Positions 43,936-50,800 of a stretch of 64,000 nucleotides of DNA are shown in pieces. Positions within the stretch are counted from its first letter, which is position 1. The number at the start of each line of letters is the position of its first letter. The DNA comes from Streptomyces roseirectus. Lineage in GTDB: Bacteria; Actinomycetota; Actinomycetes; Streptomycetales; Streptomycetaceae. The notes beneath the pieces were generated by a model, which did not search any database, was not told where the DNA came from, and worked only from the letters and a program-made list of their open reading frames with translations. The position numbers and the translations under genes are program-made. The DNA lies in contig NZ_CP060828.1 in NCBI RefSeq assembly GCF_014489635.1, positions 5,783,501 to 5,847,500 on the forward strand, read 5' to 3'.

Positions 43936-45231
43936 TCACCGCACTTCGATGAACCCCTCCACCCCCCTCTCCCCCCGGGCCCGAGGCTCCTCCGCGGGCC
44001 GCCCCACCGCGACGGCCCCCATGGGATCCCACCCGGCGGGCAGCGCCAGCACCTCCCGCACGACATCCCGGCAGAACATCGTCGACGACACCCACGCGGA
44101 CCCCAGCCGCTCCCCGGCCAGCGCGACGAGGAAGTTCTGCACCCCGGCCCCCGCCGCGACGACGAACATCTCCCGCTCGGCGGCATCCCGCCGGGGATCC
44201 CCGTAGTGATGCGACCCGTCCATCACCAGACAGGGCACGACGAGATAGGGCGCGTTGCGCAGCACATCCCCCCGCCGCACCCGCTTCGCGATGGACTCCT
44301 CCGACTTCCCGTCCCGCCGCAGATCCGCGACCCAGGCGTCCCGCATCGCGTCGAGCAACCGCACCCGCGACTCCTTTGACTCCAGTAGCACGAACCGCCA
44401 GGGCGTGGTGTGATGCGGCGCCGGCGCGGTGACGGCCGCGGCGACGGCCCGCCGCACCGCCCCGGGATCGACGTCGTCGTCGGTGAACGCCCGCACGGTC
44501 CGCCGCTGCGTCACCGCGAGCCGCACGGCCTCGGACGTCCCGAGCCGGAACATGTCGTCCGCGGCCCCGCGCACCAGGCGCCGCGCCCCCTCGGTCTCGT
44601 CCCCGTCGACGACATGCCCGAGCCCGCGCACCACGGCGACCGGCAGCCCGGTGGCCTTCCCCTTGACGAGGTCCCCAGCGGCGGCCAGCTCGTCGGCGGT
44701 CGCGACGACGGTCGCGACGAGCGGATTCCCGTACGCGTCGGTCCCGCCCCGCAGATCGTCCAGCACCCGCACCCCGGCCGCCCCGATCGCGACGTCCGTC
44801 AACCCGGCCCGCCAGGGCCGCCCGAAGGTGTCACTGACGACGACCCCGACATCGACCCCGAGGACATCCCGCAGCCCCTCCCGGATCGCACGCGCGGACG
44901 CGTCCGGGTCCTCGGGCAGCAACAGCACCGTGCCCGCGGGCGTGTTGGACGCGTCGACCCCGGCGGCGGCCATCACGAGCCCCTGCCGGTTCTCGACGAT
45001 CCGCAGCGTCCCCCGCCGCGCGACGACCCGCACGGTCTCCGCGTCGATCGCGGCCTCCCGGTCGTCCGCCGCGACGATCCGCCCCTCGGCCTTGGACACG
45101 ATCTTCGACGTCACGACGACGACGTCCCCGTCGGCGAGCCCCGGCTCGGCCCCGGCGATCAACTTGGCGAGGTCGTCCCCCCGCCGCACCTCGGGCAGCC
45201 CCTCGACGGCCCACACCCGGTACTCACTCAC
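43936..45231 (-). CDS. fbiB: Bifunctional F420 gamma-glutamyl ligase / nitroreductase-fold protein (FbiB)
   Basis: This 431-residue protein fuses two domains. Residues 1-240 form a CofE-type ligase ([49 protein letters not shown]). Residues 245-431 form a nitroreductase-like domain ([41 protein letters not shown]). In mycobacteria FbiB adds glutamates to F420-0 and reduces the dehydro-F420 intermediate. The GTG at 45231 overlaps the end of fbiA by eight bases; a second GTG four bases on is out of frame. fbiA and fbiB act consecutively. Confidence 0.93.
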
Positions 45232-46186
45232 CGGCCCGCACCTCCTGCGCCAGCTCCAGCGCGACCCGCGCCATCTCGGCGGTCGCCTCGTCGTCACTCA
45301 TCATCAGCGGTACGGCCCGGCACCGGATCCCGGCGGCCTCCACGCGCGCGACGGCACCGGCGTCGACCGTGTCGACCAGCCACCCGTCGAGCAGCCCCGC
45401 CCCGTAGTGCTCGGCGACGGCCGCGGCGCTGGACTCCACCCCGACGGCGGCCAGCACCTTGTCGGCCATCCCACGCACGGGCGCGTCCCCGACGATGGGA
45501 GAGAGGCCGACGACCGGCGCGCCCGCCTCCGCGACGGCCTCCCGGATCCCCGGCACCGCCAGGATCGTCCCGACCGACACGACCGGGTTGGACGGCGGGA
45601 ACAGGATCACGTCCGCCGCGCCGATCGCCTCCAGCACGCCCGGCGCCGGCTTCGCCTGCTCGGCGCCGACCGGCACGACGGCGTGCGCGGGCACGGACGC
45701 CCGCAGCCGCACCCAGTACTCCTGGAAGTGGATCGCCTTGCGCTCCCCGTCGAGCTCGACGGCGACATGCGTCTCGACCCGGTCGTCCGTCATCGGCAGC
45801 AGCCGCACGCCCGGTTTCCACCGGTCGCACAGCGCCTCGGTCACCGCGCTCAGCGGATATCCCGCCGCCAGCATCTGCGTCCGCACGATGTGCGTCGCGA
45901 AGTCCCGGTCACCGAGCCCGAACCACTCGGGCCCGACCCCGTAGGCGGCGAGTTCTTCCTTCACCCGGAACGACTCGTCCTCCCGGCCCCACCCACGCTC
46001 CTCGTCGATGCCCCCGCCGAGCGTGTACATCACGGTGTCCAGATCAGGACAGACCTTCAATCCGAACAGATGAATATCGTCCCCCGTATTTCCGACCACC
46101 GTGATCTCCGCCTCCGCCGCGGCCTTCTTCAGACCGCGCAGAAACCGAGCCCCACCGATACCGCCTGCCAGAACCACAATGCGCAT
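45224..46186 (-). CDS. fbiA: 2-phospho-L-lactate/phosphoenolpyruvate transferase of F420 synthesis (FbiA/CofD)
   Basis: This 320-residue enzyme transfers the phospholactate or phosphoenolpyruvyl group to FO, making (dehydro-)F420-0. [41 protein letters not shown] and [11 protein letters not shown] are family signatures. It overlaps fbiB and follows the cysteine dioxygenase gene by 37 bases in the same direction. A 7-bp inverted repeat sits in that gap. Confidence 0.94.
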
Positions 46187-46195
46187 GCCCCAAGT

Positions 46196-46215
46196 CTGTC
46201 AGCCCCCACTGACAG
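46196..46215. promoter_or_regulatory. Inverted repeat between cysteine dioxygenase and fbiA
   Basis: CTGTCAG at 46196-46202 and CTGACAG at 46209-46215 are perfect reverse complements with a 6-base spacer, ten bases upstream of the fbiA ATG. It could be an operator or an RNA hairpin that sets the level of fbiA relative to the upstream gene. Confidence 0.45.
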
Positions 46216-46223
46216 CCCCGCCG

Positions 46224-46739
46224 CTACCCGGCCGCGGGCAGCAGTGCCTCACCGGCCTCGGCCCCGCACGCGCGCGCCTCCGAGCGCATCGGCATCTCGG
46301 TGAGCCCCGGGTAATAAACGTGCAGGCTCACTGCCGGCTCCCACGTGTCGTTGTGCACGTCATGCGCATACCCCGGCGCGAACACCCGCTGCGCGCCCCC
46401 CGAGAGCTTCCGCACCCCCCGCTCGGTGCGCTCGGTGAGCGTCCCGTCGAGCACGGTGAGGACACCGGAGGACCGCCCGTGGTCGTGGAGAGCGGTCCCC
46501 TGCCCGGGAAGCCAGGACAGCAGCCAGACCTCGTAGCCGGGCCCGGTGCGCAGCCGGTGGTACCAGCGGGTCGTGGCGTCGTAGCGGACGAGAGGCGCCC
46601 ACTGCGCCCGGTCCGCGGCGATGGACCGCGCGAGCCCGACGAACTCGGCGACGGTGGAGGGGTGTTCACGCGGGGGCTGCAGCAGGTGGAGGACTTCGAG
46701 GATGTCGCCGGCGATCTGGAGGTCGTTGTCGCTGTTCAT
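46224..46739 (-). CDS. Cysteine dioxygenase
   Basis: This 171-residue cupin oxidises L-cysteine to cysteine sulfinate with O2 and a mononuclear iron. Iron ligands are in LHDHGRSSG (His85, His87) and in the later YAHDVHN. The cupin strands SGVLTVLDG and VSLHVYYPG fit the family. The ATG at 46739 was chosen at the family start. It heads a leftward series with fbiA, fbiB and the glycosylase. About 155 bases upstream ends a short ORF rich in cysteine codons, so expression is probably tied to cysteine supply. Confidence 0.88.
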   Translation of the reverse strand: MNSDNDLQIAGDILEVLHLLQPPREHPSTVAEFVGLARSIAADRAQWAPLVRYDATTRWYHRLRTGPGYEVWLLSWLPGQGTALHDHGRSSGVLTVLDGTLTERTERGVRKLSGGAQRVFAPGYAHDVHNDTWEPAVSLHVYYPGLTEMPMRSEARACGAEAGEALLPAAG

Positions 46740-46796
46740 AAGGGTGCGGTGGTTCCTCGGCGGGAGTTGCGGCGGGGGGCTGGGTGTCACGTACCG

Positions 46797-46817
46797 GCCG
46801 CCCGGATCACGGGCGGC
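46797..46817 (-). terminator. 8-bp hairpin in the cysteine dioxygenase leader
   Basis: GCCGCCCG at 46797-46804 pairs with CGGGCGGC at 46810-46817 around a five-base loop. It lies between the poly-cysteine short ORF and the cysteine dioxygenase start, where an attenuator or Rho-influenced structure would be expected. Confidence 0.55.
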
Positions 46818-46855
46818 GCAGATGCCCTGGTCCGGGCGTGGGGGAACAAGCAGCC

Positions 46856-46871
46856 GAGTCGCGGTGGACTC
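46856..46871 (-). other. Small hairpin just after the poly-cysteine ORF
   Basis: GAGTC at 46856-46860 pairs with GACTC at 46867-46871 around GCGGTG, about 25 bases after the leader stop codon. A ribosome stalled on the cysteine codons could affect it. Confidence 0.4.
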
Positions 46872-46895
46872 AGGACAGCCGGAGCGAGGTGAGGC

Positions 46896-46991
46896 TCAAC
46901 AGCTGGGACAGCAACAACAGCCACGGCGAGCGCGGGCAGCACCGAGGGACCCGGCGGAGCGGGTCGAGGTGATGGCCAAGTTCGCGAGCAT
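46896..46991 (-). CDS. Poly-cysteine leader peptide (31 aa), candidate cysteine attenuator
   Basis: On the minus strand an ATG at 46991 opens a 31-codon frame that ends GCCCCPSC and stop at 46896-46898. Five of the last seven residues are cysteine, with four consecutive TGT/TGC codons. The gene downstream on the same strand is cysteine dioxygenase. Seven bases before the ATG is a -10-like TGTCCT, and 17 bases further a consensus TTGACA, so the ATG would be the first codon of a leaderless transcript. This matches the polycysteine leaderless short ORFs described in mycobacteria, where slow translation of the Cys codons at low cysteine changes expression of the operon behind. Expression is inferred, not shown. 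Confidence 0.72.
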   Translation of the reverse strand: MLANLAITSTRSAGSLGAARARRGCCCCPSC

Positions 46992-46998
46992 GCCCACA

Positions 46999-47027
46999 AG
47001 GACAGCGGTTCACACCCCCACTGTCAA
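46999..47027 (-). promoter_or_regulatory. Promoter of the poly-cysteine leader / cysteine dioxygenase transcript
   Basis: Read on the minus strand: TTGACA at 47027-47022, a 17-base spacer, and TGTCCT at 47004-46999, followed seven bases later by the leader ATG. The -35 is perfect and the -10 is weak. Confidence 0.6.
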
Positions 47028-47289
47028 CTCCACACCCGGAGGGTGGGACGCGATTCACCCCATCCGGTACGTGTCGGAGACGAAAGGTTTGTTCACGCAC
47101 TCACCGGGACACATGGCGCACAACCGGGCGCGTGACCCGCGTGTCGGAACGAGAACGCAGTTGATGGCGTCCTTTCCCGTAACAGGCCGTCAGGCCCCGT
47201 CTGCATGTCAAGGTTTATGGCGATTTGAACACTTTCTGCGCCGCCTTGGTTCCGCAGAGTGAATAAGGGGCCCAATAGCAGATCTCGGC

Positions 47290-47319
47290 TTGACTCGCCC
47301 GGAGCAGCACACTTGTAAT
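47290..47319 (+). promoter_or_regulatory. Candidate whiB promoter
   Basis: TTGACT at 47290-47295, an 18-base spacer and TGTAAT at 47314-47319 lie about 80 bases before the whiB ATG. In S. coelicolor whiB has a constitutive promoter and a developmental one dependent on BldM-WhiI. Which of these this represents cannot be told from sequence. Confidence 0.45.
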
Positions 47320-47398
47320 TTCACTCGTGTCGTTCGCCGCCACCACTTGACGGTTGACGGCCCGGCACGGGGACGCGAAAGACAGACGAGGGGCGCAC

Positions 47399-47662
47399 AT
47401 GACCGAGCTGGTGCAGCAACTGCTGGTCGACGACGCGGACGAGGAACTCGGCTGGCAGGAGCGCGCGCTGTGCGCCCAGACCGATCCCGAGTCCTTCTTC
47501 CCCGAGAAGGGTGGCTCCACGCGCGAGGCCAAGAAGGTCTGCCTCGCCTGCGAGGTCCGCTCCGAATGCCTCGAATACGCCCTCGCCAACGACGAGCGCT
47601 TCGGCATCTGGGGCGGTCTCTCCGAGCGTGAACGCCGCCGCCTGAAGAAAGCGGCCGTCTGA
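47399..47662 (+). CDS. whiB: Sporulation regulator WhiB
   Basis: This 87-residue iron-sulfur protein has four cysteines at 25, 48, 51 and 57 (ALCAQ, VCLACEVRSEC), the FGIWGG turn and a basic C-terminus ERERRRLKKAA. As far as I can recall it is identical or nearly so to S. coelicolor WhiB. WhiB binds DNA with WhiA and is needed for sporulation septation. The ATG is preceded by GAGGGG, and the next gene lies beyond a strong hairpin, so it is monocistronic. Confidence 0.97.
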   Translation: MTELVQQLLVDDADEELGWQERALCAQTDPESFFPEKGGSTREAKKVCLACEVRSECLEYALANDERFGIWGGLSERERRRLKKAAV

Positions 47663-47714
47663 CGCCGGTACGACCGTATGAATGGCCTGTGGCCTGGTAA
47701 GAAAACATCGAGAC

Positions 47715-47751
47715 GGCCCGTCGCCCGTGGGTTATCCACAGGCGGCGGGCC
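47715..47751. terminator. Long hairpin terminator after whiB
   Basis: GGCCCGTCGCC at 47715-47725 pairs with GGCGGCGGGCC at 47741-47751 with one wobble, and an inner GTGG/CCAC pair caps the loop. The loop side includes TTATCCACA by chance. Confidence 0.8.
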
Positions 47752-47856
47752 GCTGCCTTGCCCAGCCGATAGTGTGGTCGCTCGTCCGAGACACCCCACC
47801 GTCCTCGCACGGCACGGGTGTTCACCGCAGTCCATCGAACCGGGGCCCGTACCTCG

Positions 47857-50800
47857 ATGTCCGTGCACAGCCACCCGGCAGCCCGCGACGCTGCCACGCC
47901 AGAGTTCCCGCGTCACGTGGTGACCGCGGTCCTCGTCGCCCACGACGGGGCCCGCTGGCTGCCCGACGCGCTCGCCGGACTGCTCGGCCAGGAGCGCCCG
48001 GTCCAGTCCGTCGTGGCCGCCGACACCGGCAGCGCGGACGACTCCGCCCAGCAGCTCACCGAAGCCCTCGGCGAGGGCCGCGTCCTGCACCTCGCCCGGC
48101 GCACCGGCTTCGGCCAGGCCGTCGAGGAGGCCGTCCGCGCGGCCCCGGTCCTCACCCCCGAGGAACTGCCCTACCTCAAGCGCCCCAGCGGCTGGGACCC
48201 CGTCACGCGCACCTGGCGCGACGACGCCTACGACCTCCCCGAACTCCCGCACGGCGAACCGGTCCAGTGGCTGTGGCTGCTGCACGACGACAGCGCCCCC
48301 GAGCCCGACGCCCTCGCCGAACTCCTGCGCGTCGTGGACAACGAACTGGAACTGGGCCGCGACGACGTGGCCGTCGTCGGCCCCAAACTCCGCGGCTGGT
48401 ACGACAAACGCCAGCTCCTCGAAGTCGGCGTCACCATCGCCTCCTCGGGCCGCCGCTGGACCGGCCTCGACCGCCGCGAACAGGACCAGGGCCAGCACGA
48501 CCACGTCCGCCCGGTCCTCGCCGTCTCCACCGCCGGCATGCTCGTCCGCAGGGACGTCTTCGACGACCTCGGCGGCTTCGACCGCCGCCTGCCCCTCATG
48601 CGCGACGACGTCGACCTGTGCTGGCGCGCGACCTCCCTGGGCCACCGCGTCCTGGTCGCCCCCGAGGCCGTCGTCCGGCACGCCGAGGCCGCCTCCCGCG
48701 AGCGCCGCACCGTCGACTGCGGGGGCCGCACGGCCGCCTCCCCGCACAAGGTCGACAAGGCCGGCGCCGTCTACACCCTGCTCGTCAACAGCCGTACCGC
48801 CGCGCTGCCCTGGGTGTTCTTCCGGATCGTCCTCGGGACCGTCCTGCGGACCCTCGCCTACCTCGTCGGCAAGGTCCCCGGGCAGGCCGTCGACGAGATC
48901 CGGGGCCTGCTGGGGACGCTGCTGCGGCCCGAGCGGATCATCGCCGGACGCCGCGCGCGCGGGAAGCCCGTCGTCGACAAGGGCGAGCTGCGCGCCCTGT
49001 TCCCGCCGCCCGGCGCGACCCTGCGGGCCACCGTCGAACAGGCCGCCGGCAGCTTCCTGGACTCCTCCGACACCGACACCGCCCCCGGGCGCCACGGCGG
49101 CGGCATCGAGTCGGGCCCCGGCGGGGACGACGCGGACTTCCTGGAGATCGAGCAGTTCGCGCGCCTCAAGCGCATCGCCCGCAAACCCGGCCCGGTGCTC
49201 TTCCTCGCGCTGCTGCTGATCTCCCTGGCCGCCTGCCGCGCCCTCCTGGGCACCGGCGCCCTCGCGGGCGGCGCCCTGCTGCCCGCCCCCGGCACCGCAG
49301 GCGAGCTGTGGAACCACTACACCGACGCCTGGCACCCCGTAGGCGCAGGCGGCACCCCCTCCGCCCCGCCCTACCTGGCGATCGTCGCCGCGCTGGCCGC
49401 CCTGCTGTTCGGCTCGACCGGCCTCGCCGTCACCCTCCTGCTGGTCTGCTCGGTCCCGCTCGCCGGGTTCACGGCCTACTTCGCCTCCCGCCCGCTCGTC
49501 ACCTCACGCCTCCTGCGCGCGTGGGCCGCCGTCGTCTACGCCTTCCTGCCCGCCGTCACCGGCGCGCTCGCCGGCGGCCGGCTCGGCACCGCCGTCCTCG
49601 CCGTCCTGCTCCCGCTGATCGCCCGCGCGGGCATCGCCGCCAGCGGCCTCGCCCACACCTCGGGCACGCGCGGCAGCTGGCGGGCCACCTGGGCGTACGC
49701 GCTGCTGCTGACGATCACCACCGCGTTCACGCCGGTCGTGTGGCCCATCGCGCTGGTCCTCGGCCTCGCGGTCCTCGCCGTGCGCCGCACCGAACTCACC
49801 GCCTACGGCCCGCGTTTCCTCGCCCAGCTCGGCACCCCCCTGCTGGTCCTCGCGCCCTGGTCGTTGTCCCTCCTGCCGACCGGCTTCTTCCAGGAGGCCG
49901 GCCTCGACTTCGGCGCCTCCGCTGCCTCAGCACTCGACCTGCTCGGCGCCAGCCCCGGCGGGCCCGGCACGGTCAGCGGCCTGATGCTCATCGGCGTCGT
50001 CCTCGCCGCCCTCGCCGCCCTGCTGCGCTCCGAGCGGCACACCGGCGTCTGGGCGGCCTGGGCGGTCGCGCTGGTCGGCCTCGTCTTCGCCGTCCTGTCC
50101 AACGGGGACGCCTGGGCGGGCCCCGCCACCCTCGTCTACGGCCTCGCCCTGCTGTGCGCCGCGATGATCGGCGCCGACGGCGCCCGCTCGCGCGTCGCCG
50201 AACAGAGCTTCGGCTGGCGCCAGCCCGTCGCCGCCCTCATCGCCTTCGCCGCCGCCGCGGGCCCGCTGCTCGTCGCCGCCGGCTGGATGATCCGGGGCGC
50301 CGACGGCCCCCTGGAGCGCCGCGACCCCGTCCAGGTGCCCGCGTTCGTCGCAGAGGAGGCCGGCACCCGCGACCAGGCCCGCACCCTGGTCCTGGACAGC
50401 GACTCCGCCGCCCACGTCTCCTACATGCTGGTCCGCGGCTCCGGCGCCCGCATGGGCGACGCCGAGACCGCCGCGGCCGACGGCGAGAACAAGCAGCTCG
50501 ACAAGGTTGTCGCCAACCTCGTCGCGGGCTCCGGCGCCGACCAGACCACCGAACTCGGCAAGTTCGCGGTGCGCTACGTCCTCGTCCACAAGGGCGCCCC
50601 GCGCGAGGTCGCCCGGGTCCTGGACGCCACGCCCGGCCTCAGCCGCCTCAGCCAGCAGAACGGCAGCGCCCTGTGGCGGGTCAACCGCGAGGTCTCCCGC
50701 GCGGCGATCGTCACCGAGGACGGCTCCGGCACCCCCGTCGCGGTCGGCGCCGGGCCCGTCGAGATCCACACCACCGTCGAGGACGGTCCCGAGGGACGTG

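Follow-up and report, generated by a model that had tools for sequence, protein, structure and literature searches.

A candidate leaderless cysteine attenuator upstream of a cysteine dioxygenase-like gene in Streptomyces

The locus described here raises the question of why a gene annotated as a cysteine dioxygenase (CDO), an enzyme whose usual role is cysteine removal, should be preceded by a short open reading frame (sORF) that ends in a run of Cys codons, and of which way such an arrangement would respond to cysteine. The window analysed is a 64,000-nucleotide stretch of Streptomyces roseirectus contig NZ_CP060828.1 (positions 5,783,501 to 5,847,500) and carries the sORF on the same strand as, and upstream of, this sulfur-metabolism gene (PF05995), within a conserved gene order (Table 1). 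A first-pass annotation had described a layout of TTGACA, 17 nt, TGTCCT, 7 nt and the ATG, at 46991, of a 31-codon ORF, and direct reading of the minus strand bears it out. The encoded peptide is MLANLAITSTRSAGSLGAARARRGCCCCPSC, followed by the stop codon, and four Cys codons stand in a row close to that stop. A consensus promoter scan found no promoter and did not recover TGTCCT. Transcription probably starts on the first base of the sORF's ATG or very close to it, and the sORF is presumably translated. Positions 44000-49500 of the window hold no Rfam family at gathering score, and the two matches at E up to 5 both lie outside the element and below that score.

Table 1. Features of the locus, in window coordinates
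Feature	Position	Strand	Basis or remark
whiB, divergent neighbour	47354..47662	+	PF02467
-35 hexamer TTGACA	47022..47027	-	read from sequence
Putative -10 hexamer TGTCCT, weak consensus match	46999..47004	-	read from sequence
Cys-rich leader ORF (sORF), 31 codons and TGA, putatively leaderless	46896..46991	-	sequence and comparison
Cys-codon run TGT TGT TGC TGT (TGTTGTTGCTGT), proposed stalling codons and anti-start sequence	46908..46919	-	
Hairpin H1, 5' arm CAGCTG	46900..46905	-	almost invariant, with all cells (100%) paired across 17 relatives
Hairpin H1, 3' arm CGGCTG	46876..46881	-	same helix comparison, 17 relatives
Hairpin H2, stem GAGTC..GACTC (46871-46856)	46854..46873	-	terminator-like in loose scan
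Hairpin GCCGCCC..GGGCGGC	46797..46817	-	by eye only in long-spacer relatives
GAGGA Shine-Dalgarno of the CDO-like gene	46754..46758	-	present in most relatives displayed
CDO-like thiol dioxygenase gene	46224..46739	-	Pfam PF05995, profile and fold matches
ACAGCGACAACG immediately 3' of the CDO start codon, complement of the Cys run	46724..46735	-	
cofD (F420 biosynthesis), 37 nt downstream of the CDO-like gene	45224..46186	-	TIGR01819, 447 bits

The product of the CDO-like gene matches PF05995 (CDO_I) with 65.5 bits against a cut-off of 23. Its nearest solved fold and its best profile match are both the ergothioneine dioxygenase of Thermocatellispora tengchongensis (8qfl to 8qfr), the structure model having a mean pLDDT of 72.5 and a shared fold showing no substrate. 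A Y60-H61-R62 motif is invariant in the enzyme and resembles Tyr58/Arg60 of rat CDO, but the HMMER alignment does not place the two together. The order whiB (divergent), CDO and cofD is kept in 80/80 named Streptomyces loci, and cofD is probably in the same operon as the CDO-like gene.

The named relatives were the best 80 of 485 confirmed enzyme matches, all of them Streptomyces, and the sORF with its Cys tail stands upstream of the CDO-like gene in 80/80 of these loci. It is also found in 61 of 63 more divergent regions of the same genus (L111-L173) and in 33/33 further loci, one of which is the window's own copy and ten of which are identical to upstream sequences already counted; all of these sequences are related, so counts across relatives are not independent. 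Coverage of the genus came to 96 of 132 genomes (30 in L081-L110, 63 in L111-L173, and three in L220, L221 and L223), and an order-wide search gave a CDO-like match in 145 of 147 genomes. A set of 143 ORFs was assembled from the window, the 80 loci, the 61 regions and L176. The distance from the end of TTGACA (141) or TTGACT (2) to the ATG is 29, 30 or 31 nt in all 143, a test that is unbiased for 81 of the ORFs only, as the 61 regions and L176 came from a finder that demanded TTGAC 20-40 nt upstream. No Shine-Dalgarno-like motif is present at -16 to -4 before the sORF in any of the 143. At least three Cys occur among the last 12 residues of 142/143 peptides, with runs of at least three in 101/143, runs of at least two in 121/143 and isolated Cys only in 22. 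The peptides otherwise diverge, 132 of the 143 being distinct (for example MLANLALTSTRTAGSHGAARARCSCCCPSC and MPATSALRLTRAYGSRCAVQARCRCSSC), and the spacer between sORF and enzyme gene varies from 62 to 254 nt. The alignment proposed in the first-pass annotation, in which the Cys codons would be conserved and the other residues largely not, thus came out as predicted across Streptomyces. The claim that such a Cys run is unlikely by chance is upheld by the counts in the three sets of loci, and the comparison of sequences lends strong support to a candidate regulatory ORF, of the leaderless poly-Cys type, in front of the CDO-like gene.

The two divergent regions without a Cys ORF, L152 and L162 (genomes G109 and G035), retain TTGACA and show AACAACGAC rather than AACAGCGAC downstream of the CDO start. 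Each of the two genomes also has a second CDO-like paralogue (48-54% identity), preceded by an HVDF-type leader; G041, G065 and G123 have such a paralogue too, yet keep the Cys ORF. In many of L003-L080 a second frame runs across the promoter and sORF, often reading MNRCPCGHAREL..RVPRCCPRSL, and is probably a by-product of the conservation of these two elements.

Codon choice in the sORF tails differs from that of the genes they precede: across 142 sequences the tails contain 563 TGT and 143 TGC codons, whereas the CDO genes of the 80 loci use TGC for 79/79 Cys codons, TGT being rare by contrast. The order TGT-YGC-TGT is present in frame in 129/142 sORFs and in 31/33 of the further set, and AACAGC lies immediately 3' of the enzyme start codon in 134/142 (it is missing in eight) and in 32/33. 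The TGT-YGC-TGT order is complementary to the enzyme gene's own AUGAACAGCGAC start, and in the window the complementary run extends to 12 nt, TGTTGTTGCTGT (46919-46908) facing ACAGCGACAACG (46735-46724). Recoding of TGT to TGC weakens the duplex between sORF and start in 142/142, by a mean of 7.0 kcal/mol over the 80 loci; against 1200 random downstream windows, the same recoding makes pairing stronger, by a mean of 2.1. In 120/142 the natural sequence forms a stronger duplex than its synonymous shuffles do on average, the effect of shuffling being -2.4 for the start versus -0.2 for random windows. The raw duplex energy is not exceptional: compared with downstream windows from the same locus, its median rank is 0.255 and it reaches the top 5% in 8/80, so that it does not by itself single out the start; the argument therefore rests on the recoding and on the position profiles given below. 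L136 and L143 pair poorly (-7.3 and -7.7 kcal/mol). Eight of the nine pairs in the main part of the helix are invariant in 17 sequences and one flanking pair fails in 6/17, so that the helix is too invariant for covariation either to prove or to refute it. In relatives with short spacers, GTTCCCTC could sequester the Shine-Dalgarno sequence by pairing with GAGGAAC.

As the Cys codons are complementary to the enzyme start, a ribosome stalled on them is predicted to free that start. The 142 sequences were folded with a 29-nt ribosome footprint, and the cost of opening the enzyme start region was taken as the readout. The median cost falls from 15.9 kcal/mol in ribosome-free RNA to 9.6 when the A-site is placed on the first tail Cys and to 9.0 when it is placed on the second; with the ribosome at the stop codon it is 12.2. 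The first-Cys footprint saves more than 0.5 kcal/mol in 125/142 and fails to do so in 17, and the cost with this footprint is below that with the stop-codon footprint in 95 sequences versus 17. Over 11 A-site positions in the 57 sequences with spacers shorter than 170 nt, hardly any effect is seen outside the stretch from codon -10 to the stop; the deepest median drop lies at codons -8 to -4 before the stop (-7.0 to -7.6), and positions further upstream give 0 to -0.5. In the window itself, the stop position opens the start as well as the Cys codons do (6.2 versus 6.3).

We put the probability at roughly two in three that the sORF is a leaderless, cysteine-sensing translational attenuator of the CDO-like gene, ON when Cys-tRNA(Cys) is scarce. 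Transcription would begin at or near the A of the sORF ATG, giving a leaderless mRNA on which the sORF would be translated at once, and the Cys-codon run near its end would hide the enzyme's start by base-pairing with that part of the message (AUGAACAGCGAC...). With Cys-tRNA(Cys) plentiful, ribosomes would pass and leave, the duplex would form and the enzyme would be poorly made. With Cys-tRNA(Cys) scarce, a ribosome would stall on the Cys codons, cover their strand of the duplex and free the enzyme start. The ORF and its conservation, the bias to TGT, the complementarity and the predicted folding are computed results, whereas the transcript start, sORF translation, stalling and the response to cysteine are what we infer.

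The alternative that survives best, although we judge it unlikely, is transcription attenuation: the sORF, sensing through its Cys codons, would govern whether the transcript is terminated, either at H2 or by Rho within the pyrimidine-rich leader, and the pairing to the start would be secondary. A loose terminator scan found two terminator-like sites, against 0.0 expected in shuffles, and H2 (46873-46854) is one of them; its helix has two of six pairs changed on both sides in a compensatory manner, with 99% of cells paired in 17 relatives. Rho has been suggested for mycobacterial cys leaders in the accessible part of PMC1262725, and the probable S. coelicolor orthologue discussed below changes at the RNA level. 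The U-rich tail after H2 (CTGCTTGTTC) is only weak, however, no anti-terminator competing with H2 was recognised by eye, and the spacer length is variable; termination also leaves both the complementarity to the start codon and the TGT-YGC-TGT order unexplained. The second hairpin (46817-46797) is missing, by eye, from the short-spacer relatives. Both hairpins to which the first-pass annotation had drawn attention can be read in the sequence, but the main predicted switch is the pairing of the Cys run with the start rather than either of them.

The direction of the response separates translational attenuation by the Cys codons from the expectation of the first-pass annotation, that expression would rise at plentiful cysteine and the enzyme would remove the excess. 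The match to PF05995 and the usual role of CDO favour that expectation, and a true cysteine dioxygenase would be wasteful when cysteine is low; we nevertheless consider it highly improbable, as the predicted opening of the start is greatest with the ribosome on the Cys codons and as the expression and leader data below point the other way. SCO3035 is probably the S. coelicolor orthologue of the CDO-like gene, because whiB is SCO3034 (PMC4255298), the gene order is kept in 80/80 loci, and SCO3044 is an LCP protein (PMC6767563), LCP-like ORFs being seen by eye on the CDO/cofD side of whiB in the window. RNA-seq of S. coelicolor, as given in the available part of PMC4991794, has SCO3035 up 6.54-fold in H2O2-treated wild type and lists it with ssuABC, cysNDCHI, cysA, cysM and metNIQ, the inferred orthologue thus rising together with cysteine-assimilation genes. 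In the hbpS-senS-senR mutant, the same part of that source has no gene up, and this, together with a change at the RNA level under H2O2, makes promoter control possible.

Several Cys leaders of the same genome also argue against a response to excess cysteine. Eight leaders of the NCBIfam type NF042934 (cis_reg_atten) exceed the cut-off in the window's own genome, and the genes behind them, assigned by eye, include sulfite reductase, a sulfonate monooxygenase with a permease, rhodanese and cysteine synthase, which resemble sulfur-acquisition genes. The best-scoring of the leaders, at 39 bits, precedes a second CDO-like gene (genome coordinates 2539292-2539703; L189, L219) and reads MTDTCVHLWRRVHMDLVRYAGCVCRPSC, with a GTG start after TTGACC. 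Weaker matches in this genome (L201-L208) have E values of 0.39 to 4.8, and in control genomes the same search gave matches in 10/14, none over the cut-off. The predicted polarity, ON at low cysteine, speaks for the enzyme acting in salvage; it may scavenge sulfur from some thiol as part of a cysteine-starvation response and not waste cysteine. That the sORF is instead kept for its peptide, for example as a small metal- or redox-binding Cys peptide acting in trans, is scarcely credible: the Cys-rich tail is nearly universal in the 143 ORFs, but the remainder of the peptide diverges, Arg replaces Cys at the position where CGC improves the pairing (45 TGT-CGC-TGT triplets), and the peptide has no family match.

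Set beside known systems, the sORF is probably an attenuator of a known kind on a new target. The leaderless poly-Cys sORFs known from Mycobacterium smegmatis (Canestrari et al. 2020), whose attenuation depends on cysteine availability according to the accessible portions of PMC9031893, PMC13236596 and PMC9094748, are likewise short ORFs with contiguous Cys codons upstream of sulfur-metabolism genes, and a putative leaderless start in Streptomyces would suit both the missing Shine-Dalgarno-like motif and the steady 29-31 nt between -35 hexamer and ATG. As far as those portions describe them, they differ from it in genus and in target, which here is a CDO-family thiol dioxygenase. In the Streptomyces RNA the Cys run itself is predicted to pair with the start-codon region, a feature set out here for this RNA alone. 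A further likeness is to the candidate Cys leaders before cys/cbs operons of Mycobacterium, P. acnes and B. longum (Seliverstov et al. 2005, PMC1262725), which in the parts of that paper available have Cys-codon runs near the stop and no conserved terminator hairpin; S. avermitilis and S. coelicolor were included there, and these parts mention neither a Cys leader from Streptomyces nor a CDO gene. Table 4 on S. lividans in PMC8079986 gives eight leader peptides, none of them before a CDO gene in the portion of the paper available. No report of a Cys leader before CDO in Streptomyces was found in the titles and abstracts searched, most subscription papers being outside reach. NCBIfam models give no match for the window peptide and three relatives. 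Leaders of the NF042934, NF042936 and NF042933 type also precede CDO-like genes, namely paralogues, but differ from the window sORF in their (H)VDL.R..S..C motif, in having few Cys and in showing no clear opening of the start at the Cys codon; the window peptide falls below the curated cut-off of all three and is not a member of them. What appears new is the target, the occurrence in almost every Streptomyces examined, the predicted pairing of Cys codons directly with a start codon, and the predicted polarity.

Beyond Streptomyces, a class-wide search gave a CDO-like match in 57/118 genomes. Twenty-two distant loci (L225-L246) were examined by script for ORFs of at least 12 residues, and six of them were read directly, shorter leaders being sought in those six. 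A plausible leaderless Cys leader lies near the gene in L230, L233, L241, L242 and L245, and 534 nt upstream in L236; script hits in L232, L240 and L244, a second in L245 and two in L230 were taken for noise. L241 and L242 have a putatively leaderless five-codon ORF, ATG CGC TGC TGT TGC TGA (MRCCC), after which CTCCGG can pair with a CCGGAG Shine-Dalgarno sequence, and L245 has MQSCR. In two other families with unrelated leaders, one with five tail Cys and one of the MRCCC/MQSCR type, the start is predicted to open at the Cys codons in a like manner, by -3.2 to -9.8 in L176 and by -4.9 to -9.3 kcal/mol in L241, L242 and L245, although in these last three the stop position opens it as well as the Cys codons do. 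Leaders of (H)VDL type precede paralogous CDO-like genes, the types in L174 and L177 scoring 24 bits, under the 27-bit cut-off. Little or no Cys-codon-specific opening of the start was found in the (H)VDL-type loci L174, L175 and L177-L179, in L230 and L233, or in family f3 (L180-L183 and L185-L188, without L184, which is cut by a contig end), and the mechanism is therefore not claimed for any of these. The f3 leaders likely act by a different mechanism. In the f3 loci, the VDLLRVASCMC-type leader ORF overlaps the first 23-35 nt of the enzyme gene, whose start was picked by eye.

A broader reading, which we hold tentatively and at somewhat less than even odds, is that CDO-family genes of Actinomycetia belong to a cysteine-starvation regulon and have come repeatedly and independently under Cys leaders (the poly-Cys 28-49-mers of Streptomyces, the leader with five tail Cys, MRCCC/MQSCR and the (H)VDL type), the annotated cysteine dioxygenase being a sulfur-salvage thiol dioxygenase, for example for ergothioneine, that is ON when cysteine runs out. 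If this is true, cysteine shortage would switch on genes that carry a cysteine-destroying annotation throughout a large genus of antibiotic producers, and the enzyme would be reassigned to sulfur salvage, with a direct hypothesis as to its substrate. If the reading of the Streptomyces sORF is right, the codons that sense cysteine and the sequence that blocks the start are the same nucleotides, and the synonymous choice between TGT and TGC would be under visible selection.
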